Shown here: positions 2,089 to 61,200 of the stretch, piece by piece
How positions within the stretch are numbered: position 1 is the stretch's first letter
Layout of the letters: each line of letters starts with the position of its first letter
Source of the DNA: Methylovulum sp.
GTDB lineage: Bacteria > Pseudomonadota > Gammaproteobacteria > Methylococcales > Methylomonadaceae
Assembly (NCBI GenBank): GCA_030653435.1
Contig: JAURZI010000025.1
Location: 1-64,000 of the forward strand
DNA: 64,000 bases
Direction: 5' to 3'
Notes under the pieces: generated by a model
The model's input: only the letters and a program-made list of their open reading frames with translations
What the model was told of the DNA's origin: nothing
Database searches by the model: none
Position numbers and translations under genes: made by a program

Positions 2089-2466
2089 TTACCGGCTCGC
2101 CAGATAATCCCTAACTTGCCGGTCACTGGTCGTAATATGATTTACCCACAGGGTCATAAAACCAATAGCCTGCGTTTTCCCCCAATCACCTTCCCTAATA
2201 GCATCGCTTTTTGCAACTAACGAGTCCAGCATCTCGTTATGCTCCTCGCAATGGCGTTTATAGTCCGGGTAGGCCTGTTCCTTCAGTATTTCTTCTTCAT
2301 TATGAAAATGTTCACGGACATGCTTATAAAGCTGCATGATATGCTTAATCAACTCATCATTTGTCTCGCTCTCAATGATTACATTAGCCAATTCAAATAA
2401 ACGCCGATGTTCGCTGTCCATTGTTGCATTGCCTAACGAGTATTCATCTTTCCATTCAAATTTCAT
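2089..2466 (-). CDS. Bacteriohemerythrin
   Basis: This 125-residue protein is a single hemerythrin four-helix bundle of normal length that binds O2 at a non-heme di-iron centre. Visible ligand motifs are MDSEHRRLFELAN near the start, HVREHFHNEEE (H and E ligands), the YPDYKRHCEEHNEM helix, and a C-terminal HITTSD matching the usual HxxxxD. No signal peptide is present, so it is cytoplasmic. The ATG follows a GGGG-rich ribosome site. In Methylococcus capsulatus a bacteriohemerythrin has been proposed to supply O2 to particulate methane monooxygenase; that role here is inference, and O2 storage or sensing is equally possible. The next gene on the same strand is an Aer-like receptor, so a link to aerotaxis is also conceivable. 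Confidence 0.93.
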   Translation of the reverse strand: MKFEWKDEYSLGNATMDSEHRRLFELANVIIESETNDELIKHIMQLYKHVREHFHNEEEILKEQAYPDYKRHCEEHNEMLDSLVAKSDAIREGDWGKTQAIGFMTLWVNHITTSDRQVRDYLASR

Positions 2467-2841: not shown

Positions 2842-5193
2842 TCAAAACTCTTCCCATTCATCAGCGCCGGCTGCTACGGGCTGTGCTTGCCATTTCGGCT
2901 TGGACGCGGTGACCGGCGCCGGTTGGTTTAACCTGGCCTTGGCTATTGCCGTTTCTTTTCGTATCGGCGCAACAGTGCGGTCAGCAGAGTTTGCACGGCT
3001 ATCCAGTTTAAAACCAGCCACGGTAGCTGACAGATGTTGCGTTTGCTCTTCCATGGATTCCGCCGCCGCTGCGGCTTGCTCCACCAAAGCGGCATTTTGC
3101 TGGGTCACATCGTCCATTTGGGCAATCGCTTGATTAACTTGTTGGATGCCGGACGTTTGTTCAACCGAAGCCGAACTAATGTCAGACATGATCGCCGTAA
3201 CATTACGGATAGAGCTGACGATTTCCTCCATAGTCTGACCGGCATGGGCAACCAGTTTATTACCATCCTGAACTTTATCCACCGAATCATGGATCAGCAC
3301 TTTGATTTCTCCGGCCGCCTTCGCTGCGCGTTGTGCAAGACTACGCACCTCCACGGCGACAACGGCAAAGCCCTTGCCTTTGTCGCCCGCGCGTGCGGCT
3401 TCGACGGCGGCATTGAGCGCCAGAATATTGGTCTGGAAAGCAATATCATCGATGACCGAAATAATGTCACCTATTTTTTGCGAGGACTGATTAATATCAT
3501 CCATCGTCACGACCACTTGCCGCACCACATCGACACCTTTAGCCGCGATATCCGAGGCTTCAACAGCAAGCTGGCTGGCATGCTTGGCATTTTGCGTATT
3601 GGCCTGCACCGTAGAGGTCAGCTCTTCCATGCTCGCGGCCGTTTGTTCCAGACTGGCGGCCTGCTCTTCAGTACGGTGCGAAAGGTCATTGTTACCTGAC
3701 GCAATTTCTTTAGCCGCCGTACGGATGGCATCGGACGCGACTATAATTTCACCGATCATTTCTTTAAGTTTTTCGACGGTGGTGTTGGAATCGTCTTTGA
3801 GCTGGCCGAAAGTACCGGAATAGTCATTGGTGATGGTTTCGGTCAGGTCGCCACGGGACAGCGCATCCAGCACGCGCACGACTTCATTTAAACCGATGGA
3901 ACTGGTTGCCATGAGCCGGTTGATACTTTGCCCCAAAGCCAGGAAAAAACCCGTTTTGTCCTGTTCGTTGATGCGCTGGGTGAAGTCGCCCAGCGCCGCG
4001 CCATCGACAATCCCGGAGATTTCCTGCTCGATTTTAATCTCGGCGGTCCTGTCCAGCCATTCAGCGACAAAACCAATGCGCTCGCCATCTTCACGAATAA
4101 CGGGATTGGCAACAACAATCATATTGTGGCCGCCAATCATTAATTCTGACCGGAACGGACCGGTTAATTTTTCCAGCATGCCGCGTTGATGGGCCGGATT
4201 TTTATGAAAAAAGTCGATATTGGCACCCATCAGTTTGTCAGCATTAAAATCCGGCAATTGTTTGCGTATATCCTGTTCCGCCTTTTTAAACATATTCTCG
4301 ACAGAGCGGTTCATATAAATAATATTAAAATCGGCATTGGCGACCATGACGCCCGACTGGACATTATCCAGCGCCCGGTTGATCCGTAGCGCATCCGCTG
4401 CCAGTTGCCGGGACTCGGCCAATTGCGAATTCATCGTGACTTGCATGATATGCAGCCCACGCAATAAATCGCCCAACTGGTCATTTCTGTTTAAATCAAA
4501 TTTATTCCTTAGATTGCCTTCTATCATGCAATACAGAGCATAAATACCGGTTTCCACCGCACGAGTGACGCCACGCGCCAAACTGATGATGAGCATCGTG
4601 GCAACTGTCGCCGAGAGCGCCGCCATCGCCAGCAGCGAGTATTGCTGGGATAAAAACAACTGGTAGGCCAACAAGCCGATAGGGGCTAAAAAAGCGGCCA
4701 GGCTCAACGCCACTTTTTTCGATAGCGCCGTTTCGCTAACCGCTTTAGCCGCAGCAGCAAGACCCGTGGGCCTTAGCTTCGCCGTGTTGGCGTTCAATTT
4801 TTTGTATAAAATTTCTGCCTGTTCAATCTGTTCGCGTTTTGGCGCATAACGTGCCGAAAAATATTCATGAAGCTGTTCATTTTTATAAACCGGAATCACA
4901 TTGGCTTCGACCCAATAAAAATCGCCTGATTTGGTGCGGTTTTTTACCGGCGCCGCCCAAGGCTTACCCTGTTGTAATGTTGCCCATAAATCCGCAAAGG
5001 CGGCGGGCGGCATGTCAGGATGCCTAATGAGATTATGATTGGCGCCCAGCAATTCTTCCCTGGTATAGCCGCTGATGGCAACAAACGCATCATTGACATA
5101 AGTTATGCGTCCTTTTAAATCGGTTCGGCTAACTAATATTTCGCCCTTTTTCATCAAGACTTCTTTATCAGTCACTGGCATATTGATTTTCAT
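2842..5193 (-). CDS. Aer-like PAS-containing methyl-accepting chemotaxis protein
   Basis: This 783-residue chemoreceptor starts with an Aer-type PAS domain (about 15-120; motifs [25 protein letters not shown]) with no periplasmic ligand domain. Hydrophobic segments follow (about 160-205), then a HAMP-like region, a second PAS-like domain (about 270-385), a second HAMP stretch, and the signalling hairpin centred on [22 protein letters not shown]. It ends in DEWEEF, resembling the C-terminal pentapeptide tether for CheR/CheB. By analogy with Aer it should sense redox or O2 through the first PAS and signal to CheA/CheW; the cofactor is not provable from sequence. The frame can start at a GTG at 5205, but the ATG at 5193 ([11 protein letters not shown]) is the better match to Aer-type N termini. 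No che genes are in the window. Confidence 0.92.
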
Positions 5194-5440
5194 AATAAAT
5201 TCCACATTAAATTATTTTGTCGTTGATTAAATAATTAGGCCGTATAACTCACTTATATCTTACATAAATTTTTAATCATTATATATTATTTCAGTATTTT
5301 CATCATTTATTATGTTGGTATTACACCCGGAACAGTTTGAAAAAGGTATGCGATGCGTACCTAGGAACTGCTTCCGGCCCACAGTAAAGAAAAAAGAATT
5401 GATATTCAAAATATTAGATTGGATCTCGTTAGACGCTCGT

Positions 5441-5587: not shown

Positions 5588-8095
5588 TCACTCGCCCAAT
5601 AGCGCCTCAAACTCCGCCAACGGCACCGGCCTGCTGAACAAATAACCCTGATAGGCGAAACAGCCCAGGCGTTCGAGACCAGCCCGTTGTTCTTCAGTCT
5701 CCACGCCCTCGGCGATAACGTTAAGCCCTAAATTATTAGCCATGCCGATAATAGTCTGGACTATCGCGGCATCGTTTGGGTCGGTGGTGATATCCCTGAC
5801 GAAGGACTGGTCGATTTTCAATTGGGTAAGCGGCAGCTTTTTCAAGTAAGCTAACGAAGAATAGCCCGTGCCAAAATCATCCATAGAAAACCGGATACCC
5901 AACCGTTTTAGCTCGTCCATTTTTTCGATGGCTTCTGTGACGTTGTGCATGATCAAGCTCTCGGTCAGCTCCAACTTAAGCCGTGTAGCATCTGCACCTG
6001 TTTCTTCGAGTATCTTGCACAATTGCCCAACGAAATCGGGTTGGCTGAACTGGCGCACGCTCACATTGACAGCAAGCTGCAAATCCCGGGTAAGCGGCTT
6101 GCCCGCCCAGGCCTTGAGCTGCCTGCAGGCGGTCTGCAATACCCAGTCGCCAATCGGCACGATCAACCCGGTTTCCTCGGCGATAGGGATAAATCGGTCA
6201 GGGGAAATCAACCCGCGTTGTGGATGCGCCCAGCGCAGCAGCATTTCCGCGCCGAGCACACCTTGGGTGTTATGGATTTGGACTTGATAGTAAAGCGTGA
6301 ATTGCTCCTGTTCCAGCGCCTGCCTTAACTCTGATTCCAGGACCATGCGGGTTTCCAGTAATGTCTGCATGTCTGGATCGAAAAAACGCAGGGTATTGCG
6401 CCCGGCGCGTTTGGCCTCATACATCGCGACATCGGCATGCTTGAGCACCGATTCAGCGGTCAAACCGATACCGGAATACAGGCTGATGCCGCCGCTGGCT
6501 GAACTCAGGTGTTGTTGCCCGTCTAGCCAATAGGGCTGGTTTAGCATAGCCAAGACTTTTTCGCCGACGGCTTCAGCTTGCACAGCGGCCTGGTCTTGCC
6601 TGGAATCCAGATCTTCCAGCATGATGACAAATTCGTCGCCGCCCAAGCGCGCTACCGTATCACCTTGGCGCACACAGGATTTTAACCGTTGCGAAACTTC
6701 AACCAGCAACAAATCGCCGATGCCGTGGCCCTTGGTGTCATTGATGACCTTGAAGTTATCGAGGTCAATCAGCAGGACGGCACAATGGCTGTGGTTGCGA
6801 GCGCTGCAGCTTATGGACAGCTCCAGGCGGTCATTCAGCAAACGCCGATTGGGAAGATCCGTGAGCGGGTCGTAGAAGGCAAGGCGATAGATGGCGGCTT
6901 CGGCATCTTTATGCTCGCTGAGGTCGGTAAAGGCGCCGACATAATTGACGATTTGTCCGGCAGGGTCGGTCACTGCCGAGATCGTTAGCCACTTGGGATA
7001 AATCTCGCCATTTTTGCGCCTGTCCCATATTTCCCCTTGCCATTGTTTTTCCGTTATCAACTTTTCCCATAACGCCTTATAAAAAGCGGCATCATGCCGA
7101 CTGGACTTCAAAATAGCCGGGGTTTTGCCGATCACTTCTGCGGCACTGTACCCTGTCAGCCGCGTAAAAGCGCTGTTGACCCGCAGGATGTAGTTATTGG
7201 CATCGGTGACCATAATGCCCTCTTGCGATTCCATCGCGGTGGCAGCAATACGCAGCTCCCGTTCAGCCGATCTTTGCTGGCTGATGTCGCGGGCGATGAC
7301 AACCAGCCATTTGCGCCCGCCGTCCACCTTGAATAGCGGCGTCGTACGTACTTCGAACTCGCAGGAACGGCCCGCGTCATCAACACTGTGCGTTTGAAAA
7401 ATAATTAAATGACGCGCAACCCAGGCGAATTCTTCTTCCTTGGCGCATTTTTCGTACATCGTATGCTGCTCTGGGTTTATCGTGGCGAGTTCCAGGTTGG
7501 TCCTGCCTTGCCAGGCAACGTCACGAAGTTTGAACAACCGCTGGGCGAACTCATTGGCGACTAGCCAACGCCCTTCGCCGTCTTTAAGAAAAATAGCGTC
7601 CGGTATCGTCTCTATCAGCGTCGTTAGCTGTTTGCTGAGCAGGTGTAGCTTAGCCTCGCTGTCTTGCAAAGCCTGTTGCGACAGCTTCCGTTGTTCAATT
7701 TCCTGCTCCAGCTCCGCAGGTGATGGCAAGCGCAAGGCTAGCGGAAGCACCCACACCAAATAAACCGCCGTGATAATCGACAATACTGCGGTAATGGCTT
7801 TCAGCAAGGCATCCAACCCGTAGAACGGATGCCATAACAGCACGATAGAAAATAAATGCGTGGTACCGCAGGCCAGGATGAACACGCTGAACATCAGGAA
7901 AACCCAGCGGAATTGCAGGTCTTTGCGATGCCAGACAAAATAAGCCAATGCGAAGGGGATGGAGTAATAGGCCAACGCGATCAGGGCATCCGAGATGACG
8001 TATGTCCAGAGTAGGCCAGGCGTCCATTGGATACAGAAACCATGCGGCATCCAGCCATTTTCGCTAACGGCATCAGTGAGCAATTGTTCAAGCAT
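5588..8095 (-). CDS. Ethylene-receptor-type membrane domain fused to PAS-PAS-GGDEF-EAL (cyclic di-GMP enzyme)
   Basis: This 835-residue protein opens with a three-helix membrane domain (about 28-125) that aligns without gaps to plant ETR1. D36, Y43, I73, C76 and H80 match ETR1 D25, Y32, I62, C65 and H69, and the FILACGTTH motif carries the Cu(I)-binding Cys and His. A coiled coil and two PAS domains (about 150-275 and 280-400) follow. The GGDEF domain has an intact GGDEF at about 485 and the RxxD inhibitory site (RQGD) five residues before it. The EAL domain has EMLLRW at about 615, plus DDFGTGYSS and IAEGVE. Both cyclic di-GMP synthesis and breakdown look possible. The start has a strong GGAGG site. 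The fold match is clear; ethylene or copper binding is inferred from conserved residues, and some bacterial relatives may instead scaffold other sensors. Confidence 0.92.
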   Translation of the reverse strand: MLEQLLTDAVSENGWMPHGFCIQWTPGLLWTYVISDALIALAYYSIPFALAYFVWHRKDLQFRWVFLMFSVFILACGTTHLFSIVLLWHPFYGLDALLKAITAVLSIITAVYLVWVLPLALRLPSPAELEQEIEQRKLSQQALQDSEAKLHLLSKQLTTLIETIPDAIFLKDGEGRWLVANEFAQRLFKLRDVAWQGRTNLELATINPEQHTMYEKCAKEEEFAWVARHLIIFQTHSVDDAGRSCEFEVRTTPLFKVDGGRKWLVVIARDISQQRSAERELRIAATAMESQEGIMVTDANNYILRVNSAFTRLTGYSAAEVIGKTPAILKSSRHDAAFYKALWEKLITEKQWQGEIWDRRKNGEIYPKWLTISAVTDPAGQIVNYVGAFTDLSEHKDAEAAIYRLAFYDPLTDLPNRRLLNDRLELSISCSARNHSHCAVLLIDLDNFKVINDTKGHGIGDLLLVEVSQRLKSCVRQGDTVARLGGDEFVIMLEDLDSRQDQAAVQAEAVGEKVLAMLNQPYWLDGQQHLSSASGGISLYSGIGLTAESVLKHADVAMYEAKRAGRNTLRFFDPDMQTLLETRMVLESELRQALEQEQFTLYYQVQIHNTQGVLGAEMLLRWAHPQRGLISPDRFIPIAEETGLIVPIGDWVLQTACRQLKAWAGKPLTRDLQLAVNVSVRQFSQPDFVGQLCKILEETGADATRLKLELTESLIMHNVTEAIEKMDELKRLGIRFSMDDFGTGYSSLAYLKKLPLTQLKIDQSFVRDITTDPNDAAIVQTIIGMANNLGLNVIAEGVETEEQRAGLERLGCFAYQGYLFSRPVPLAEFEALLGE

Positions 8096-8485
8096 TTTCG
8101 CCTCCGCTGACCGCCGTTAGGCCTGGACACCGGTTTGCGTGCTGCAAAAACAGGGGCAAAGGGTGCGAAGGGGGGGGGAGAAAAAGCGGGCGGCTAGGGC
8201 AATGCCACCGGATAATTGCCGACAGGCTGCTTAGTGACCAGGTGTCGGGCAAGCAATAGCTGTCAAGGGATGTGTGTAGAATTTGATCGGCAAGGCGATT
8301 TAAAACTTGATTGGACACACGCGCCTCCTGCCTGATAGGCATTCGTCAATTACCCATGGACAGGCCATGAGGGGTAAGTTAACGAGGCGTGTTCTTGGCC
8401 CCATGATTTCGATGCCGGGGGCAGGGGCAAACCGAATCCAGTTGCTAATATAAGTGACTTGCCCTAAAAAGCAAGCGTATTTTTC
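8096..8485. other. Intergenic region between GGDEF-EAL gene and response regulator, no gene seen
   Basis: These 390 bases form the leader of the GGDEF-EAL gene on the minus strand. A run of nine G at about 8170-8178 and a short TGCCT-GAT-AGGCA hairpin at 8329-8341 are the only marked features. An open minus-strand frame (8088-8342) is low-complexity Pro/Leu-rich and is not believed. The promoter of the downstream gene should lie here, but I could not pick one with confidence. Confidence 0.4.
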
Positions 8486-9094
8486 CTAAGTCCCAAGATT
8501 CAGGGTTTCAGCCGCCGTAATAATATCCAGCGCCAGTTCCGCCAAACTGCGGCGCTGGCTACGGGCAGTTTTACGCAACAGCTCAAAGGCCGGTTTGCGG
8601 GCAAGACGGTATTGCACCATGGTAATCCCTATGGCAATGCTGATGTCACGCTCACTATCGAGGGCCTGTTGCAGCTGTTGCCCTGTCGTCCTCAAACCGC
8701 GAAGCTCTGCGGCGCGGGCCAGGGCGGCCTCTATGGCCGGCACCAGTTGCGGCACATCGACCGGTTTCACCAAATAGCCCAGCGCCCCGCAACTGGCGGC
8801 CTGTTCGGCAATCTCAACATCGCTATAGGCCGTCAGCAACATGAACGGGACATGGTCAAATGAGCGCAGCCGGGCTGCCAGTTCCAGCCCGTTCCTGCCG
8901 GGCATGTTGACATCGAGTACAACCAAATCCGGTCGTTCCCCGCTCGCCAGCATGGCTTCTGCATCGTCTACGGATTCTGCCGTGCTGACACGATAACCGG
9001 CAAGCGTCAGCCCCTGGACAAGAATCATCAATATCAGCCGGTCATCGTCGACGAGCAGCAAATAGCGTGGTTTACTCAGGGCATTAGCATTCAT
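8486..9094 (-). CDS. Response regulator with ANTAR RNA-binding output domain
   Basis: This 202-residue protein has an N-terminal receiver domain with acidic residues D16-D18, phospho-acceptor D61 (VVLDVNMPG), T88 and K110. A coiled linker and a C-terminal ANTAR domain (about 148-198; AIGITMVQYRLARKPAFELL and ARSQRRSLAELA) follow. ANTAR regulators of the AmiR/NasT/PdtaR type bind paired RNA hairpins and prevent transcription termination. It overlaps the upstream kinase gene by ATGA, so the two are translationally coupled and should form one two-component pair. Targets are unknown. Dual-hairpin ANTAR sites in leaders would be expected somewhere in the genome; I did not recognise one in this window. 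Confidence 0.92.
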   Translation of the reverse strand: MNANALSKPRYLLLVDDDRLILMILVQGLTLAGYRVSTAESVDDAEAMLASGERPDLVVLDVNMPGRNGLELAARLRSFDHVPFMLLTAYSDVEIAEQAASCGALGYLVKPVDVPQLVPAIEAALARAAELRGLRTTGQQLQQALDSERDISIAIGITMVQYRLARKPAFELLRKTARSQRRSLAELALDIITAAETLNLGT

Positions 9095-11016
9095 GTCTTC
9101 GGTTCCTGTTGAATGATCGGGGCGTCCAAACTCAGCGTCGTGACAACGGTATGCCCCTGTTGTGTCCAGAATAACGTGGCGCCTGCTTGCGGTAACAGCG
9201 AGGCGACCAGTTGCAGGCCGACGCCCAAGCTGCCTGCCGCCTCCAGCCCAAAGCTGGCCGGTATCGCGCCGGTGTTGTGGATGGCCAACCGTATCGAGCC
9301 GGGGCGCGGTTCATGGCTGAGCATAATGTTGACTAGCCCGCCAGCTCCGCCATGCTTGACGGCATTGATGACCAGCTCGTTCAATACCAAAGCCAAGGGT
9401 ACGGCTTCCGCTTCGGAAATAATACAGGGCACCCAGTCAACAGGGATATTAACAGCAACCGGTTTTTGCCACAGCGCTTCAACCTCCGCCGCTATCGCAA
9501 CAGTCAGTTCGCATACCCGCACCGACGAAGTGACCGCCCTGCCTTGTAAACCGTGGATGACGGAAATGCCCTGCACCTGGCCGATGGCCTGGTTGATGAC
9601 TTCCGTTGTCTCAGGGTGTTTTTGGGCAAACTGGCGGAGTATGCCCGTGATACCTTGCAAATTGTTCTTGATACGGTGATGCACTTCGCGCACCAGTATA
9701 TTACGGTGCTGAAGCTCGTTGAGCAGGCGCTGCTGCTCTTGCAGTTCTTTGTTAGTGGCATCGGTGATCGTGCCGACGTAATGGCTGGTTCGCCCCGCCT
9801 CATCCTTAACCGCCGTTATCGTGACCCGTCCCGGATATTCCTCACCGTTTTTACGGCGTAACCACATATCGCCCTGCCATGCCGAGTTACGCATAACCTC
9901 ACGCCAAACGCCGTCAAAATAAGCGTCCGGTTGTCGGCCTGATCTGAACATGGCCGTTTTTTTCCCTTGGACATCCTGTTGGGCATAACCGGTAATCGCC
10001 ATAAACGCTTGGTTGACACGCAAGATATTCAGGTCAGCATCCATGATCACAATACCCTCCTGGCATTCAAAGGCGATGGCGGCAATGCGCTGAGCCTCTC
10101 CGGCTTGTTTACGACCGGTGATATTTTCATGCGCGATGACCGCACCCTGCTGTGCCGCCTCTCCCAAAGGCGTGACGCTCATACTGAACCAGTATTGGTG
10201 CTGCGGTGTGTGACAGGGATATTCAAAGTTAAAGCACGGCAACCGGCCATCCAGCACAGCCTGGATTCCTGCATGTGCGGGATGGGTATCCGAACAGACT
10301 CCCAGATAATTGGTGCCAACGCCAATGTTTGATCCCGGCATACAGCAATAGCCGCTATAGTCCAAGGCAAAACGCCGCCAGGCTTCGTTGACCGCCAGTA
10401 TCACGCCAGTCCGGTCAATTACGGCAATTTCAACAGAGACAGAATTCAGGATGGCTTGGCTGAAAACCACGCTGGCCTGCAACGCGGCCAGCTTCGCCTG
10501 CTCACGTTCAGTGACATCAGTCAATACGATACGCACGACCTCTGCATCGCCGTTTTGCATAGGGCTGGTAACCAGATACCCCCAGAACTGCACGCCGTCA
10601 TTTTTTAACATCCGCAATACGCAGGACTGCTGCTCACCAGCTTGGAGGCGCTGCTTCTGGTGTAAATAATAAATGTCTTGATCTTCCTTGATGATAAACC
10701 GGGTAATCTCTCGCTTGAGCAACTCACTACGCTCTACCCCCAATAATTTGGCGGCAGTCAGATTGGCTTCCAGGATCAGCCCCTGCTCGTCCAACGTGCA
10801 ATATCCCAACGGAGCCAGATCATAGAGGTCGAAATAACGAGCCCGAGCGGCATCGAGCTCCTGGTGCATGCGGCGCAATTCCTCATTTTGCGCTTCCAGT
10901 TCCGCCTGATGCGTGTGTAATTCCTGAATGACCCGCTGCATGTCATCGGGGGATGGGGTAACACTTAGCAAAACCGTTGCTTCGGCTTGTTGACGTTTGT
11001 TGTCTTTATCTTGCAT
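9091..11016 (-). CDS. PAS-rich HisKA_2-family sensor histidine kinase
   Basis: This soluble kinase of about 641 residues has an N-terminal coiled coil (HTHQAELEAQNEELRRMHQEL), three PAS domains, a HisKA_2 dimerisation domain and a C-terminal HATPase domain. REVHHRIKNNLQ carries the phospho-acceptor (H446 or H447), and LNELVINAVKHG is the HATPase N box. HisKA_2 kinases such as PdtaS typically pair with ANTAR regulators, exactly the gene that follows with a 4-base overlap. The frame opens at an ATG at 11043, but a strong AAGAAGGTG site (11021-11030) lies just before the internal ATG at 11016 (MQDKDNK), so that start is chosen. No transmembrane segment is evident, suggesting a cytoplasmic ligand or redox signal. 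Confidence 0.92.
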   Translation of the reverse strand: MQDKDNKRQQAEATVLLSVTPSPDDMQRVIQELHTHQAELEAQNEELRRMHQELDAARARYFDLYDLAPLGYCTLDEQGLILEANLTAAKLLGVERSELLKREITRFIIKEDQDIYYLHQKQRLQAGEQQSCVLRMLKNDGVQFWGYLVTSPMQNGDAEVVRIVLTDVTEREQAKLAALQASVVFSQAILNSVSVEIAVIDRTGVILAVNEAWRRFALDYSGYCCMPGSNIGVGTNYLGVCSDTHPAHAGIQAVLDGRLPCFNFEYPCHTPQHQYWFSMSVTPLGEAAQQGAVIAHENITGRKQAGEAQRIAAIAFECQEGIVIMDADLNILRVNQAFMAITGYAQQDVQGKKTAMFRSGRQPDAYFDGVWREVMRNSAWQGDMWLRRKNGEEYPGRVTITAVKDEAGRTSHYVGTITDATNKELQEQQRLLNELQHRNILVREVHHRIKNNLQGITGILRQFAQKHPETTEVINQAIGQVQGISVIHGLQGRAVTSSVRVCELTVAIAAEVEALWQKPVAVNIPVDWVPCIISEAEAVPLALVLNELVINAVKHGGAGGLVNIMLSHEPRPGSIRLAIHNTGAIPASFGLEAAGSLGVGLQLVASLLPQAGATLFWTQQGHTVVTTLSLDAPIIQQEPKT

Positions 11017-11161
11017 AGCACACCTTCTTAATCCGGCCAGCATTGGGTGTACTATGATAGCCCGTTATCACAACCGCAGCCATGCACATCAAAGGGTTTC
11101 TGTAAAGCTTATGCGGATGCCTGCACCCCCCCAAGCTGAAATGGGGCCTAAATGAAAAAGT

Positions 11162-52212: not shown

Positions 52213-55200
52213 CTACGCATTGATGTCAAACAGCTTGTCCTGTCCCCTCGCCGCCAACTCCTGCAAATAGATGCGGGCATTTCCCGCGGCATCATAAAAC
52301 GTGATGTCGTATTTACTATCTTGCTTGCCTCCGATGTTTTTCTGCACCAAATGGATCAGGGTTTGTTCGGGCAACGCGCCTTCCGCACTGATCTGTCTAA
52401 GCGAAAACGGGAACAATAACCCGCTATCGCCATGCCGCCGCCCGCTGTTATCTTGCGACAAGAATAACAACAATTGCCAAGCGGTGTTCATATAAAAGGG
52501 TTGAAACAGCATGCTTGTTAAACGATTAGCCAGCGCCGTCGGCACATTGAGTGTCGCCAGCAGCTCTGTACCGTTAACGTAGACATCTTGGATAGCATTG
52601 GCAGGCAACTCGGCTTGCCCGCCGATCTGCCCGATAAAATCTTCAAACAGCGTATCTGATCGGGATGACGCCAGCTTTGAACGGATAGTCGAAAACTTCT
52701 CTGCCTGGGGTAGACCTGTTTCTGCCGTAGCCAGCATGATTTCGCCGAAATGGCGGGTTAGCATAGGCTGGTCTGCGCTGTTGATTTTGTAAATCAGATC
52801 TGCCGCCACTTTATGCAGGGATACGTTGATGTCCTGCGGACCGCCACACCTACCGGCTGGAGGACCCCATACCATGTTTTTTAAGCCGTTGATAACCTGG
52901 CCGGTAGCCTGCTCAGCAGCTGCCCTGGCGAGTTCCAGATAGGACAAACCTATGGCCGGCTCTGTTTGGCCTAAACCCTGCTGGGTTATAGGCCCTATTT
53001 CGCAGCTTAATTGCGCTTGCCGGCGGTCGTCGGGCTTATTGCTGTGCGGCACAACAGGCCGGGCTTTTTCTTGGCTGACTGCTGGCGCAGTCTCCTCCGG
53101 CACCCAATAACAAGTCCTGGCAAATGGATATGCAGGCAGATGAATGCGCTGGGGCGGCGTGTCACCGTACAGGCTTTGCCAGGGTATGTCATAGCCTTGA
53201 CAATACAAATCCGCCAGCGCGCAGAGATTTTCCTGATAACTGTCGGCGGGCAAGCTGTGGCTGGGCTGTAACAAACCGGCCAGCATGCGCTGCATGGCTT
53301 TTTGTCCGACAAATTCGCGCGGCACTTCGCCTTGAAAAACATCAGGCCGCTGTTCCCCGTAGTTTGCGTTTTGCCAAGCATAAAGCGCATGCTCAATGTC
53401 CTGGACGACTATCGCGCAACGATGCTGAAAATGTTGCCGACCTTCCAGCAAGGTATAACTGATCCGGTTAAGCCCCTGTTTGGCCGCTTCTGCTGTGTGC
53501 AGATAAGCCCGCATATCGTCGATTTTCTCCTGCAAGGCTTCTTCGGTCTTGGCCGACAGCGCCAGCACAAAGTATGGCGCGTCAACGTTAGACGGCTGCA
53601 TCACCGGCGTATAGCCCTGCACCAGCATATGCGCGTTAGTGCCGCTCATGCCGAACGCGCTGACCGCGCCGATGCGCTCATTTCCGGGGCGTTTAGGCCA
53701 GGGTTTATTACTTTTGTTGACATAAAACGGGCTATCCTGCCAGTGGATGTAACCGTTTTCCGTTTCGCAATGCAGGCTGGCGGGGATGCTTTCATGGCGT
53801 AACGCCTGCACCAGGCTGATCAGACTGAGCAAACCGGATGCGGCGAAGGTATGACCGAAGTTGGTCTTCGTGGAGGTCAGCGCACAATAGCCGGATTTGT
53901 CGGTATCGCCTTGAAACGCATCGTAAAGCGCGTTGATCTCCACCGGATCGCCTAATTGTGTGCCGGTGCCGTGGGTGACGATATAATCTATGTCTTGCGG
54001 TCGGGTTCCGGTTTGTTGGTAAACACCTTTGAGCAACTCGGTTTGCGCCACGCCGCTGGGCGCGGTGATGCCATTGGTTTTGCCATCATAATTAACGCCG
54101 CTGCCCCGAATGACGGCATGGATAGGGTCGCCGTCAGCCACGGCCTGAGCCAAGCGTTTCAGCACGACGACTGCCACCGCTTCGCCTGGGACCATGCCGT
54201 TGGCCCGCCGGTCGAACACATAACATCTGCCGTCCGGCGATAACATGCCGGCCTGGGTCATGCCCACATAGGCCTCGGGGGCAATCATCAGGTTCACGCC
54301 TGCGGCAAGCGCCGTGTCGCATTCCCGGTTACGCAAACTTTGGCAGGCCTGATGCGTGGCTACCAGCGACGACGAACAGGCGGTGTTAATCGCCATCGTC
54401 GGCCCCTTAAAATTCAAGAAATACGCCAACCGGGCCGCCAATATGCTGGTGTTGCTTGACGTCAGGCTCACGCCTTTCAGCAAGCGTTGATAACCGCCGC
54501 CGTCTTCCACGCCGACAAACATGCCTATCTTGTGCTTGTCCAATTGCCGGGCGCCATAACCGGCATCTTCCAATGCTTTCCAGGATTCCTGCAACAAATG
54601 CCGTTGCTGGGGATCCATCAGCTCGGCTTCAAACGGCGAGATCTCAAAAAACAAGGGATCGAACTCGGCCAAGCCTGGAATACAGCCGCTCCATTTACAA
54701 TTGGTTTTACCGGTATCCTGGACGGCATCACCGTAATACTCGCGCCAATCAAAGCGGTCGGCGGGAATTTCATCGACGGCGTCGCTGCCGCTAGCCAATA
54801 TCTGCCACAGGTCTTCAATAGTCCGCGCCTTGGGAAACCTGCCACTCATGCCAATGATGGCTATCGGTTCAGGAATCGGGCTTGCGTCGCTATCAACAAC
54901 CGGCTGACGCTGTGCCGCAACTATCGGCGTTTGACCCGCCGGCGCTTCGGGTTGATGCACAGGCTGTTGCGCTTGTTGATAAAACGCCTGCATCGTTTGT
55001 GCATGCGTGGTCAGAAAATAGCGGGTCAGTTGCTGTAAGGTCGAATAACCGAAAAATAAGGCCGGGGTAATGTCCAGGCCGTAATGCTTACTGAGTCCAC
55101 GGGCAAACGCGGCAAGACTGATCGAATCAAAACCGAAATCCGCCAGATTGCTTTCGCTATCCAATTTATCGCGGCTAATTTTGAGCTGCCGGTTAATCAA

Positions 55201-58200
55201 GGCCTTCAAATCCCAGCTTATGCACTGCTCGATATTCAAGCCTTGCATTTCCGGCCGCCGACCTTTGCTTAATATCGGCACAACACGGGCAACAGCCGCT
55301 TGCTGCGCCATGCCGACCATACGCTGCACCTTGTCTGCCAGCCCAACCAACACCAGATACTGGCTGTTTTCCTGAGCCAGCAATTGGTCGAATAGAGCTA
55401 CCCCTTCTGCGTTTTCCAGCGCCCGTTGACCGCTGGATTTCAGGTAAAAATGCGTTTGCTGGGCTTCGCCGATGTGCATGCCGCCTTCTTTCCACAAAGG
55501 CCAGTTTATCGCCAGCGCCTTGCCCGAATAATCCAAGGCCTGACGATGCTTGGCATAAGCGGTTTGGAAACGGTTGCCTATAGCATAGTCGCAGGAACCG
55601 AAATCCCCCAACATCGCGGATGACGAAGAAAAATAGCAGATAAAATCCAGATCGTCCCCGCCCAGCAATTGGTCCAGCACCAAAGTACCGTTAATTTTAG
55701 GCGCCAGTACGTTTTGAAAACTATGCACGCTGGTTTCCAGCACACTGGGCGCACCGGTAATGCCGGCGGCATGGATCACGCCGGTGATCGCACCGAAGCG
55801 CTGCTTGGCCTGAGCCAAACCCGCGCTCATCGCCGCCACATCGCAAACATCGGCTTGCAGATAAAATACCTGTGCGCCTAAGCCCTCCAGATAGGCTAGC
55901 CGGGCGCGTTTATCGTCATCAAGGGCGGAGCGTCCGGTCAGTATCAGATTGGCGGCACAGGTTTTTGCCAGATGTCCGGCAAAAAGGTAACCCAACCCGC
56001 CGCAACCGCCCGTAAGCAAATAAGTCCCGTGGGTTTTGAGTGCGCGTCCGTTTTCGGCTTGCAGCGTAGCGGCCTTAAGTTGGGCGGTATGGCGCAGGCC
56101 TTGCCGATACCAGGCACTACGGGCTTGAGGCGCATGCAGCTCTGCCCATAAGGTATGGAGCCAGTCTTCTATTGCTGCATTGCCTTGGTGCTGGGGGCTA
56201 TCGGCTTGAAAGATGACCGCCGCTGGCGTGTCCGGCAACACCAGCCCTAAAGAATGCTCAAAACCTATCCAGGACTCCAGATAGCATTGTTCCACTATGC
56301 CGCTGTATGAACCCGCCAGCAACAAACGCCCCACCCGCAGCTTTGCCCTGGCTATAGCCTGGAGGCTGCGGACTATAGGCGCAGTGTCCCTGATATAAAC
56401 GGTATCTTCGACAGGCCATAGATAGAGCATGGCGTCCACCTCGGCATGGTCTGCCCGCATACGCGCAAAAGCATGTTGATAGCCTTCCTCGTCCAACACA
56501 CGGTAGGTGTCAGGAGCGTCTTGACCGTCGCCTGCACCCTGCGCTATGAACAACACGCGGGTATGCGGTGACAGGGTTTTAAGCGTCGCACGCAAAACGA
56601 GCTGGGCATGCGGGTTCGACAGGAAGCAAACCAAGGTGTTAATCGTGCGGGAGGAAGGTGCCGGCAACGGAGATGCCTGCCATACTTCTTCGAACGTCAT
56701 TACTGCGTAAGACGCGTCCGTGACGGCCGGGACTTGCAGATCACGATCCCGTGGAAATTCCGGCACTGCCGCTGGTTTATCGTTAACCGGTATCCAGTAA
56801 TGTTCCCGTGCAAAGGGATAAGTGGGCAGGCTGATACGGGCCGGTTTGTTTGCGCCATAAAGCTTGTCCCAGTCTATCACCCGTCCATTGACCCAGGCGT
56901 CGAGCAGCTTGCCGTATTGGTGTTGGGCTATCCAGCTGTCGATGACGCCCGCCATATCGTCATCGGCGGACAAAGCCGCGAACGATTCCTGTTGGTTTTT
57001 TACCTGTCCGCTGAACAGGCCGTCACCAGCCTGCCGATGCTCAAGAAAGCCCTGTAGCTTGGCTGCCAATTCAGACAGGGACTCTGCAACAAACGCCAAG
57101 CGCTCTTCCATCGCCACACGCCCGCGTTGCAACGTGTAAGCCAGGCTGTCGAGGCTTACCGTCGCCCCCTCGCTACGAACAAACGCCAGCAAGTTTTCGG
57201 CGGTGGCCTGCAAACGTTCCGAGTGCTTGGCCGATAGGACAATCAGCGCAGGCGCGGGGCTTGCATTATGCCGCGCATCGGCATTGGCCCGGTATTCCTC
57301 GATGATGACATGGGCATTCGACCCGCCCACGCCGAAGCTGCTCACGCCAGCCCGTCTCGGCATAGGCTGGTTTTGCGCGTCCACTAAAGCGTCCCAGTTG
57401 CAGGTGTCTTTGACCAGATAGAAAGGCGTCCCCTGCAATTGCAGATAAGGATTGGGCACGTTTAAATGCACATTGCCTGGAATAGTTTTGTGCTGCAGCA
57501 TCAATAGGACTTTCACGATGCCGGTGACACCGGCTGCCGCTTCCAAATGCCCGACATTGGTTTTGACCGAACCCAGACCGCAATGAGGCAGGTCAGCAAC
57601 CGCCACGCCCTGTTGCTGGTACAGGCTTGCAAAAGCGCTTTTCAGCGCATTGAATTCGACAGGGTCGCCCAGTTCCGTGCCAGTCCCGTGCGCCTCGACA
57701 TAACTGACTGTTTGCGGATGGATACCGGCACGGTTATAGACATCTACCAACAATTCCTTTTGTGCCGCCCCGTTTGGGGCAGTCGGCGATGCGGCCCGTC
57801 CGCCGTGGTTTTCGCCGCTACCGCGAATCACGCCGTAGATATGATCCTTGTCTTTAAGCGCCTTGCCCAATGGTTTTAAAAATATCGCGGCGACACCTTC
57901 CCCTCTGACATAGCCGTTGGCGCGCTGGTCGAAAGTCATGCAACGTCCGTCCTCACTCAATATGCCCGCCTGACTGGAAGCTATCGTGATACGCGGACTG
58001 GCCAGCACGTTGACGCCGCCTACCAGCGCAGCTTCGCAGCTGCCCTGACGCAGGCTTTCTATCGCCCGGTGCACGGCGATCAACGAGCTGGAACAAGCCG
58101 TGTCAATTACCTCGCTGGGGCCACGCAGATTGAGCAAATAGGAAATCCGGTTGGCGATCATAAACGGGAAGGGTTCCGTAGGCGTTTGCACATCCCCTTT

Positions 58201-61200
58201 CAGCTTGGCTTCCTGCCATAGATCCTTATAGTCAGCCGTCGCCACCCCGGCAAACACGGCGGTTTTGCTGCCGGATAAGGCGCTGGCGCTATAACCGGCA
58301 TCTTCTATCGTTGCCCAGACGGTTTCGATAAACAAGCGGCATTGGGGATCCATCGCTTCCGCTTCTATCGGGGAAATGCCGAAAAACAGCGGGTCGAAGC
58401 AATCGGCATCGGCGATAAATCCGCCCCACTTAACCCTGGTCTTGCCGGGTTCGTCGTGCGGGTCGCCGTAATACTCGCGCCAATCCCAACGGTTGCCCGG
58501 CACTTCGGTAATCATGTCCTGGTTATTGGCTAACTGTTGCCAGAATTCCTGCAGGTTTGCAGAACCGGGAAATTTACCGCTGATGCCGATAATGGCAATA
58601 GGCTCGTCTGCGGATGCAACGGCGGCATCCGGCTCTTGGGTTTGTAGCAGGCGAAATGGCTTAGTTTGGCTACATGCGGATGCTGCCGGTTTTACCGCAA
58701 CCGTATTAATATCGGCGCTGGGCGTCGCGTGTTTATCGAGCAATGCCTGATGATGGTGTCCGATAAGATAGCGGCCCAATGCCGCCAAATCAGACAGTTC
58801 AAAAAATAAGGTCGGCATCAAGGCCAAACGGTATGTTTTATTGAGTTGGTTGGCAAAGGCCGTAAAACTGATCGAATCGAAGCCATAATCCGATAAATCG
58901 CGCTCCAGGCCGATTTTGTCCGGTTTTATTTTTTGCACCTCGGCGACAATGTTGACCAGTTCGCTGTTGACGGCGTTGCTTAGCCATTGCCCGCCATCAA
59001 CCTGACCTGCTGAGGATTTCTCCTCATTGCTTAATGCAGGGCTAACAACGGCGGCTTGAGGCACATGCTTAAACGGCAGGAACTGGTTGCGGATACTGGC
59101 GGCCTCCCCATAGGCGACCAAGACCTGTGCGTATGGGCTTTGCAGAGCCAGATCGAAAGCATGCAGCCCCGCCTGGGTCGCCATCGCCACCATACCGGTA
59201 GCCTGTTTCATCAGGGTCTCGTTCTGGCTGTCCATACGCATGCCCCCTTCTTGCCATAAGGGCCAGTCCAGCGACAGCGTTTTGCCAAAGCCCTGGCCTT
59301 GCCGGACGCGTTGGTTCCGGTATTCGGCATAAGCATCCAAAAACGCATTGGCACCTGCATAATCCGCCTGTCCCGGATTGCCCATAACTCCGGCAATAGA
59401 CGAAAACAGCACGACAAAATCCAGACGCATATGGGCCGTCGCGGCATCAAGCGCCAGTAGGCCCGCTATTTTAGGGCGCAGTACGCGCTGCACGTCGGCA
59501 TCGGTTTTGTTAGCCAGATACGCATCCTGGATAACGCCTGCGCTATGGATAATACCGTTCAAGCGCCCGTATTTTTGCTGTATGGCTGCCAATAATGCTT
59601 TAACTCCGTCAATATCCGCCACATCTTGCTGCCGATACATCACCACCGCCCCGGCGGCTTGAAGCTCGGCCAGCAGGCTTTGTTTTGCCGCATCCAACGG
59701 CGAGCGTCCAGTCAGAACCAGCCTAGCCCGGTGAGTGACGCCCAAATGCCGGGCAAGCAACAGCCCTACCCCACCTAAGCCGCCAGTGATCCAGATCACA
59801 TCACCTGCCCGGCATGGCGGTTGGCTGTCGTAATCAGATAAACTGATTTCCTTGAGCGCTCTGACCGTTCTTGTACCGTCAGACGCATAACGAATGTCCA
59901 CATCGCCGTCCAGCGTTTGAATTTCTAAGGCTAGCCGCTGGATTAACGGTGTTGTGCCAACCCTGTCATGCGGCGCATAACGGATGACTTTGCCCAGTAT
60001 GCGGGCCTGTTCCAGATGGGCGGTTTTAAACAGGCCCGAATAAGCTGAATGCAGGGCCGACCCGCTATGGTCCTGAACAAGCACCAGCATAGGTTGCGCG
60101 TATGCGGGCGGATGTTTAACACCCGCTTTAATACGGTTAAACACCTGCAGAAAATTAGCCGTAATCTCCTGAGCCTGATCGTGGCCCAAAACGGCTAAGG
60201 TTTCCACTATGGCGTCCGGCCATTGCCTGAGCAAGGCATTGCTGAGTTCAGGATCGGCTACGGCGAGCATAAACACCGGTGCCATAGTGGGCAGCGGCTG
60301 GGGGCTACCAACCAAGGCTTGCGGCTGCCAGTCTTGCGTCGCATAGACCAGCGACACGGGTTGTCCGTCCTGCGGAAAAACCATCGTGAAACCCTTGGCG
60401 GCGACCAGGATCCGGCCTTGCATGTCGGTAATATCCAGATCCATTTTTATAATAGGTGCGAATACAGCGGATGCACTCCGTGGTTCGGCCCGACGGACAT
60501 AAACATAGACCTGTTCCGGCAATGATCCATAAACCAGGCATTCGTCCAAACTAAAAGGCATGGGCAGCAAGCTGGCCATACCGCTAGCCAAAGACCACAC
60601 GACGGCGCTAAGTATCGCGCCGTTCAGCAAGCCGGGATGCAACACATAAGCCTCGCCGCCTGTGCCCAGATTTGCAGGCAATGCCAGTTCTGCAATCGCC
60701 TCCACAGCATTGTAATGCAGCCGTAGGATACTCAGCAGACTAGGGCCGTGCGTCGATTGCAACAGCCGGTCGCAATCGGGTGTGCCCAGCACCGACGGGC
60801 AACGGGCGAGTATCGCCGGAATTGCTAATCTGCCGCCGCCCTGCTGGCTGACAGCCGACAGTAGTTTGCCCTGGCAATACACAATGTCCTGCCCCGTTGA
60901 ATCCGGCGCACTGGCTTCAAACACCAGATGCTCATGTTGCGGATACACATGCAGTGCTAAGTTCGCGCCCTGCGCCTGTACCTTCAAGAGCTTGGGCCAT
61001 ACGATATGGCTTAAACCCTTTACGCTGACGCCGGTCAGATAAGCCGCCCCGGCTGCCCTGGCCATTTCCAGGTAAACAGCCGCCGGCAAGATGCCGCTAT
61101 GGTCTTTCAGGAAGGACTCCGCGCCCGTCAATGCAACCGTATAGCGCATGCCCTGAGCCAAGGCCTGCTCGCTATGCAGCAAAGGATGTAACGGGTGCTG

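Follow-up and report, generated by a model that had tools for sequence, protein, structure and literature searches.

A putative membrane sensor gene and its neighbours

In the window, by which we mean the whole 64,000 nt stretch of Methylovulum DNA analysed, an open reading frame on the minus strand (5588-8095) encodes a protein of 835 aa. The frame starts at 8095 and stops at 5588, and its ATG has GGAGG, a ribosome-binding-site-like sequence (8101-8105, minus strand), 5 bases on its 5' side. An earlier note on this DNA gave the correct coordinates and left the strand unstated. A promoter scan found 1 promoter where 3.5 were expected.

Five Pfam domains, each matched far above its cut-off, make up the protein. 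An ETR1_N ethylene-binding domain (EBD; residues 28-123, 7727-8014, 2.4e-36) that includes three hydrophobic stretches is followed by a first PAS domain (PAS_4; residues 162-275, 7271-7612, 3.1e-22), a second PAS domain (residues 290-391, 6923-7228), a GGDEF domain (residues 406-567, 6395-6880, 1.6e-47) and an EAL domain (residues 589-823, 5627-6331, 1.8e-77), all on the minus strand. Pfam thus bears out the previous description of an ETR1-like membrane domain joined to PAS-PAS-GGDEF-EAL. Neither HisKA nor HATPase_c had any Pfam match in the 835 aa protein. As it has no kinase domain, it lies outside the histidine-kinase class of ethylene receptors (ETR1, SynEtr1 and AzoEtr1), though it may sense in the same way.

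The neighbouring signalling genes, identified by Pfam, are also on the minus strand. Upstream are a gene for a 202 aa response regulator with an ANTAR output (8486-9094) and, overlapping it, a gene for a PAS-rich HisKA_2 histidine kinase of 650 aa (9091-11043). A PAS-bearing chemoreceptor (MCP) of 787 aa is encoded downstream (2842-5205). Beside the orthologues L035 and L036, the same set of kinase, regulator and chemoreceptor is found, with a kinase homologue in the same place and an ANTAR regulator that is 71 % identical. The chemoreceptor homologue also adjoins the orthologue in L034, where the upstream sequence is too short to show the other two genes. In L210 (61 % identical), a HisKA_3 kinase and a LuxR-type regulator are upstream and a Tll0287-type chemoreceptor is downstream. 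In L211, whose kinase and regulator are assigned by size, the frames match in size and the chemoreceptor match is that of L210. L212 has a HisKA_3 kinase and a LuxR-type regulator upstream, and a receiver-HDOD protein instead of a chemoreceptor downstream. We note that the kinase type and the regulator output beside the EBD gene vary between genera. Counting the window, a kinase and regulator are upstream in all six of the orthologues of at least 60 % identity that have room for them (L211 by size), and a chemoreceptor is downstream in 6 of the 7 at this level of identity. L213 and L214, which are more distant, are flanked by unrelated genes, and L203 is too short to tell. Among the other EBD genes of the host genome, a chemoreceptor adjoins only that in L116. 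A small hemerythrin-like protein is encoded next to the chemoreceptor gene of the window (2089-2466).

The ethylene-binding domain

The ETR1_N match listed above reached 124.3 bits, where 27 is the cut-off, and covers 96 of the 97 model positions, with 96 residues placed on 96 model positions. Seven ETR1 residues are reportedly needed for ethylene binding (a 2006 study by Wang, from which the position numbers are taken), and all seven are kept in the window protein as D36, Y43, I46, P47, I73, C76 and H80 (DYIPICH). Five of these (D36, Y43, I73, C76 and H80) had been assigned correctly before, and I46 and P47 are the remaining two. From the alignment and sequence, the codons for D36 (ETR1 Asp25 position), C76 (Cys65, a Cu(I) ligand position) and H80 (His69, likewise a Cu(I) ligand position) are at 7988-7990, 7868-7870 and 7856-7858, respectively, on the minus strand. 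Passages of PMC12643061 give Asp25, Cys65 and His69 among these ETR1 positions.

The spacing from D36 to H80 equals that from D25 to H69 in ETR1. The domain had been described as aligning to ETR1 without gaps; this holds for the functional stretch but not for the whole domain, where a 3-residue gap falls between helices 2 and 3. Identity to plant ETR1 is 42 of 113 aligned residues, calculated with a manually entered ETR1 N-terminus, which was also the one in the multiple alignment. The seven binding positions are common to ETR1 and the window protein, whereas the cytosolic part of ETR1 is unrelated in output.

All seven positions are also found in L034, L035 and L036. Compared with four orthologues (these three and L127), the EBD is 70-79 % identical with dN/dS of 0.05-0.12, values that are rough because synonymous sites are near saturation, and both figures indicate that the domain is under constraint. 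Hydropathy peaks lie near residues 28-55, 64-88 and 97-117, and AlphaFold2 placed helices at 26-57, 60-85 and 92-121 at low confidence. The AlphaFold2 model of the whole protein, made from a 4-sequence alignment, is poor (mean pLDDT 49.9, pTM 0.27) and gives the binding site no support. Searched against the PDB, the EBD had no matches at E 1.

AzoEtr1 of Azospirillum brasilense is among the nearest characterized receptors. The protein in L162 is taken to be AzoEtr1 because it is from the same strain (Sp7), is the single EBD match there, is a frame of 529 aa against the 525 aa published, and consists of an EBD and then a kinase. The window EBD is identical to it at 57 of 135 residues without gaps and at seven of the seven binding positions, and in both proteins a PAS domain follows the EBD. 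However, AzoEtr1 has a histidine kinase for output and its response regulator is separate, whereas the window protein has a GGDEF-EAL unit in the same chain. According to passages of PMC11819568, AzoEtr1 residues 1-130 produced in yeast are able to bind ethylene, and in A. brasilense both c-di-GMP and biofilm fell in response to ethylene, by a route that was left open. SynEtr1/UirS (Slr1212) of Synechocystis, compared here by description only (passages of PMC5812497 and PMC7700396), is likewise a multidomain sensor with an ETR1-type EBD in the membrane but, unlike the window protein, has a GAF photoreceptor and a histidine kinase output.

Output and PAS domains

The GGDEF signature (residues 485-489, 6629-6643, minus strand) and an RQGD I-site (residues 476-479, 6659-6670, minus strand) are present. 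The claim that GGDEF, I-site and EAL are all intact therefore stands for the first two; the EAL signature itself (residues 617-619, 6239-6247, minus strand, located by alignment and sequence) reads EML. In L034, L035, L036 and L127 the corresponding residues are EVL. The residues that we take to be catalytic in the EAL domain (E617, N677, E709, D739, D740, K760, E796 and Q816) are all present and are invariant in a 4-sequence alignment (A1), in which the GGDEF motif and the I-site are also invariant, except for the two middle residues of the latter. With GGDEF and RQGD intact and the EAL catalytic positions kept, cyclase and phosphodiesterase activities are both possible for this protein.

The GGDEF-EAL unit resembles those of MorA (4rnh) and MucR (5m3c), with E values of 1e-114 or better, and that of DibA. 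The phosphodiesterase DibA is the best NCBIfam model (NF045675; residues 266-829), yet at 640.5 bits against a curated cut-off of 980 the window protein falls outside that family. The sensors of the MorA, MucR and DibA proteins are not known to be EBDs.

Between orthologues, the first PAS domain is the fastest-changing part of the protein (52-56 % identical) and had no relatives in the PDB at E 0.001. The second PAS domain is the most conserved part (81-83 % identity), and the closest solved sequences are 3ewk, labelled "Sensor protein" (1.1e-22), and NifL 2gj3 (2.6e-18). We take 3ewk to be MmoS of Methylococcus capsulatus, a sensor in the regulation of soluble methane monooxygenase. Both of these PAS domains bind FAD, and a redox input via the second PAS domain is therefore likely by analogy, although the resemblance is limited to this one domain and its flavin role is putative.

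The host and its five EBD genes

The host genome (G000; 4.66 Mb in 161 contigs) contains a match to pMMO subunit A (1.4e-130), and the host is a pMMO-bearing methanotroph. Cyanobacteria, singled out in the earlier note as notable carriers of EBDs, are thus the wrong context for this gene. Among the best 80 of 557 matches to the protein, three are full-length and from named genomes (one Methylococcaceae MAG and two Methylobacter MAGs) and are 70-72 % identical.

There are five EBD genes in the host, each with GGDEF and EAL in one frame, and they account for five of the 26 EAL matches in the genome, which also has 38 GGDEF matches. The binding-site residues are DYIPICH in the window protein and in L114:9595, NYIPICH in L114:4473 and L115, and NYMSICQ in L116. 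The Asp25 position is therefore lost in three of the five paralogues, in one of them together with His69, and the window protein belongs to an intact minority (two of five). This loss suggests that ethylene binding is not what the whole family is kept for.

Distribution of the fusion

An EBD was found in 26 of 61 genomes of relatives within the order; in 21 of the 26, one or more EBDs are joined to GGDEF. The lineage set contained 53 EBD matches, made up of 50 and the orthologues L034, L035 and L036; L161 was left out as its domain is too short. L034-L036 were recovered by searching with the query protein, which biases them towards the fusion, and counts are therefore given without them and then with them. 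GGDEF or GGDEF-EAL was found on 28 of 49 EBD proteins (31 of 52). By output the 49 were 26 GGDEF-EAL (29 of the 52), 2 GGDEF, 15 histidine kinases and 6 without a call, the last including contig-end and fragment cases; the histidine-kinase calls, here and below, come from a profile grown out of AzoEtr1.

For comparison, EBD proteins were collected from outside the order in samples of the class (12 of 369 genomes above cut-off, three of these inside the order) and of the phylum Pseudomonadota (28 of 398 genomes above cut-off, three of these already counted). Five matches below the cut-off (4 class, 1 phylum) and a 48 aa fragment (G674, phylum) were left out, and the plasmid-borne L162-L165, all histidine kinases, served as references and were not counted. 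None of the remaining 36 EBD proteins carries GGDEF or EAL. Histidine kinase was called for 29, and by Pfam the seven without a call are two HWE kinases, two proteins with PAS only and three with EBD only. A Fisher test of output class between lineage and outside gave p 6.5e-10, a value that includes the query-found rows, treats kin as independent, and is unfit to lean on.

The fusion had been thought unusual in such a bacterium. Its presence in all five EBD genes of the host and in 21 of the 26 EBD-bearing relatives contradicts this, and the label fits only outside the lineage (0 of 36 in the sampled other Pseudomonadota). EBD-GGDEF-EAL is the commonest EBD form in the lineage, a lineage-enriched rewiring that is missing from the outside sample. 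At the level of titles and abstracts, the literature search found neither an EBD-GGDEF-EAL fusion nor a methanotroph ethylene receptor. As a 2020 review already credits bacterial EBD proteins with a wide range of output domains (passages of PMC7700396), the shuffling of domains is no novelty in itself; what is new is the rewiring of EBDs to a c-di-GMP output across a lineage, more than the single gene.

Within the order, pMMO is no guide to whether a genome has an EBD: of the 61 relatives, both EBD and pMMO (scored as AMO) were found in 21, EBD only in 5, AMO only in 30 and neither in 5. A search of 121 genomes of the family with the protein found at least nine near full-length places, its own included; two of these contain a TAG in frame. 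In-frame TAG codons were seen in the EBD-GGDEF-EAL relatives L134 (G033:C34) and G867:C2:4136154-4138646, which are possibly broken genes or sequencing errors.

Variation at the binding site and the EBD tree

The full seven-residue set is kept in 12 of the 29 lineage GGDEF-EAL fusions, and the Asp25 position is Asp in 16, Asn in 9 and His in 4. A quick EBD tree was built on few columns (135) for its 89 rows, after removal of 3 of 92 rows that fell short of 110 residues, and has 47 open forks. In this tree, 15 rows with Asn (11) or His (4) at the Asp25 position form one group (SH-aLRT 94), which sits mostly on GGDEF-EAL and has L114:4473-7064, L115:5234-9094 and L116:5799-9629 from the host. 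Judged from these residues, the group argues against all family members being ethylene receptors.

The window protein groups with L034, L035, L036 and L127, and the histidine-kinase rows L157 and L158 fall inside this group (92), so output swaps occur over short distances. A single origin of the fusion was considered and rejected, since the tree needs 12 changes involving GGDEF-EAL and the starred branches force at least 4.

Proposed function

We favour, with some reserve, the view that the window protein is an ETR1/AzoEtr1-like gas receptor in the membrane that senses ethylene through Cu(I), a c-di-GMP turnover unit having taken the place of the histidine-kinase output. The putative three-helix EBD would form a dimer with Cu(I) held at C76 and H80, together with D36, and the copper would bind ethylene or a similar small olefin. 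The change on ligand binding would travel down a helical linker (about residues 126-163) and be integrated with whatever state the two PAS domains are in, the second of them probably a flavin/redox sensor. The balance of GGDEF and EAL activities would then shift, with net phosphodiesterase control expected, and ethylene would alter c-di-GMP and hence attachment versus swimming. The copper- or ethylene-controlled lifestyle switching suggested in the earlier note is consistent with the sequence. In favour of the receptor reading are the strong domain matches, the seven kept positions in the window protein and in L034-L036, the similarity to AzoEtr1, the constraint on the EBD, the difference in output class between the lineage and the outside sample, the chemoreceptor gene beside close orthologues and the toxicity of ethylene to methanotrophs. 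The changed Asp25 position in three of the five host paralogues and the mismatch between EBD and pMMO among the 61 relatives speak against it.

Methane monooxygenase co-oxidizes ethylene to toxic epoxyethane, which gives a methanotroph a plausible reason to sense ethylene, and the gas may alert the cell to danger or tell it that plant roots are near. According to passages of PMC11507031, ethylene at 3-50 ppmv inhibits methane oxidation in forest soils, with monooxygenase-made epoxyethane the likely poison; these passages name no receptor.

Three other readings were weighed. It is rather unlikely that the pocket now serves a different small ligand (CO, acetylene, some other alkene or an oxidized product), for which the copper-pocket set would have been kept. 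The frequency of Asn or His at the Asp25 position (13 of the 29 GGDEF-EAL fusions) and the well-supported grouping of such rows do suggest that the pocket is being retuned in the lineage, but the canonical set persists in the window protein and in its orthologues. That the EBD is now a mere membrane anchor or dimerizer, the signal being carried by the PAS domains, chiefly the flavin-like second one, is improbable. The conservation of the second PAS domain and its resemblance to 3ewk and NifL would fit, but an anchor has no need to keep all seven binding positions, and the EBD evolves at roughly the slow pace of the EAL domain (70-79 % versus 72-77 % identical). A Cu(I) sensor in which copper itself signals supply for pMMO, a copper enzyme, with ethylene irrelevant, would suit the kept ligand positions C76 and H80 and a pMMO-bearing host, but is quite improbable given that Y43, I46, P47 and I73, non-ligand positions that ETR1 needs for ethylene, are kept too, that pMMO does not predict EBD presence among the relatives, and that the annotation of the immediate neighbours shows no copper genes.

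If the domain does bind ethylene, as the receptor reading supposes, c-di-GMP, the principal messenger in bacterial lifestyle decisions, would come under the direct control of a plant hormone and soil gas within one protein and without a phosphorelay. The route from a bacterial ethylene receptor to c-di-GMP would then be testable on a single purified protein, and ethylene, an inhibitor of soil methane oxidation (passages of PMC11507031), would be tied to a sensor in a methanotroph. More tentatively, and as a possibility that we hold to be doubtful, the EBDs of the lineage may together be a standing input to c-di-GMP that has been repeatedly fused, multiplied and retuned at the Asp25 position, i.e. 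a bank of copper gas sensors that would report when methane monooxygenase meets ethylene or other alkenes and bear on whether the cell settles or swims. The Asp-to-Asn/His series provides natural variants of the copper site.

Two further frames in the window were recorded. The one at 37-2001 ends in GGAGND-type calcium-binding repeats and appears RTX-like by eye, and a very long frame of 3925 aa occupies 52213-63990 on the minus strand.
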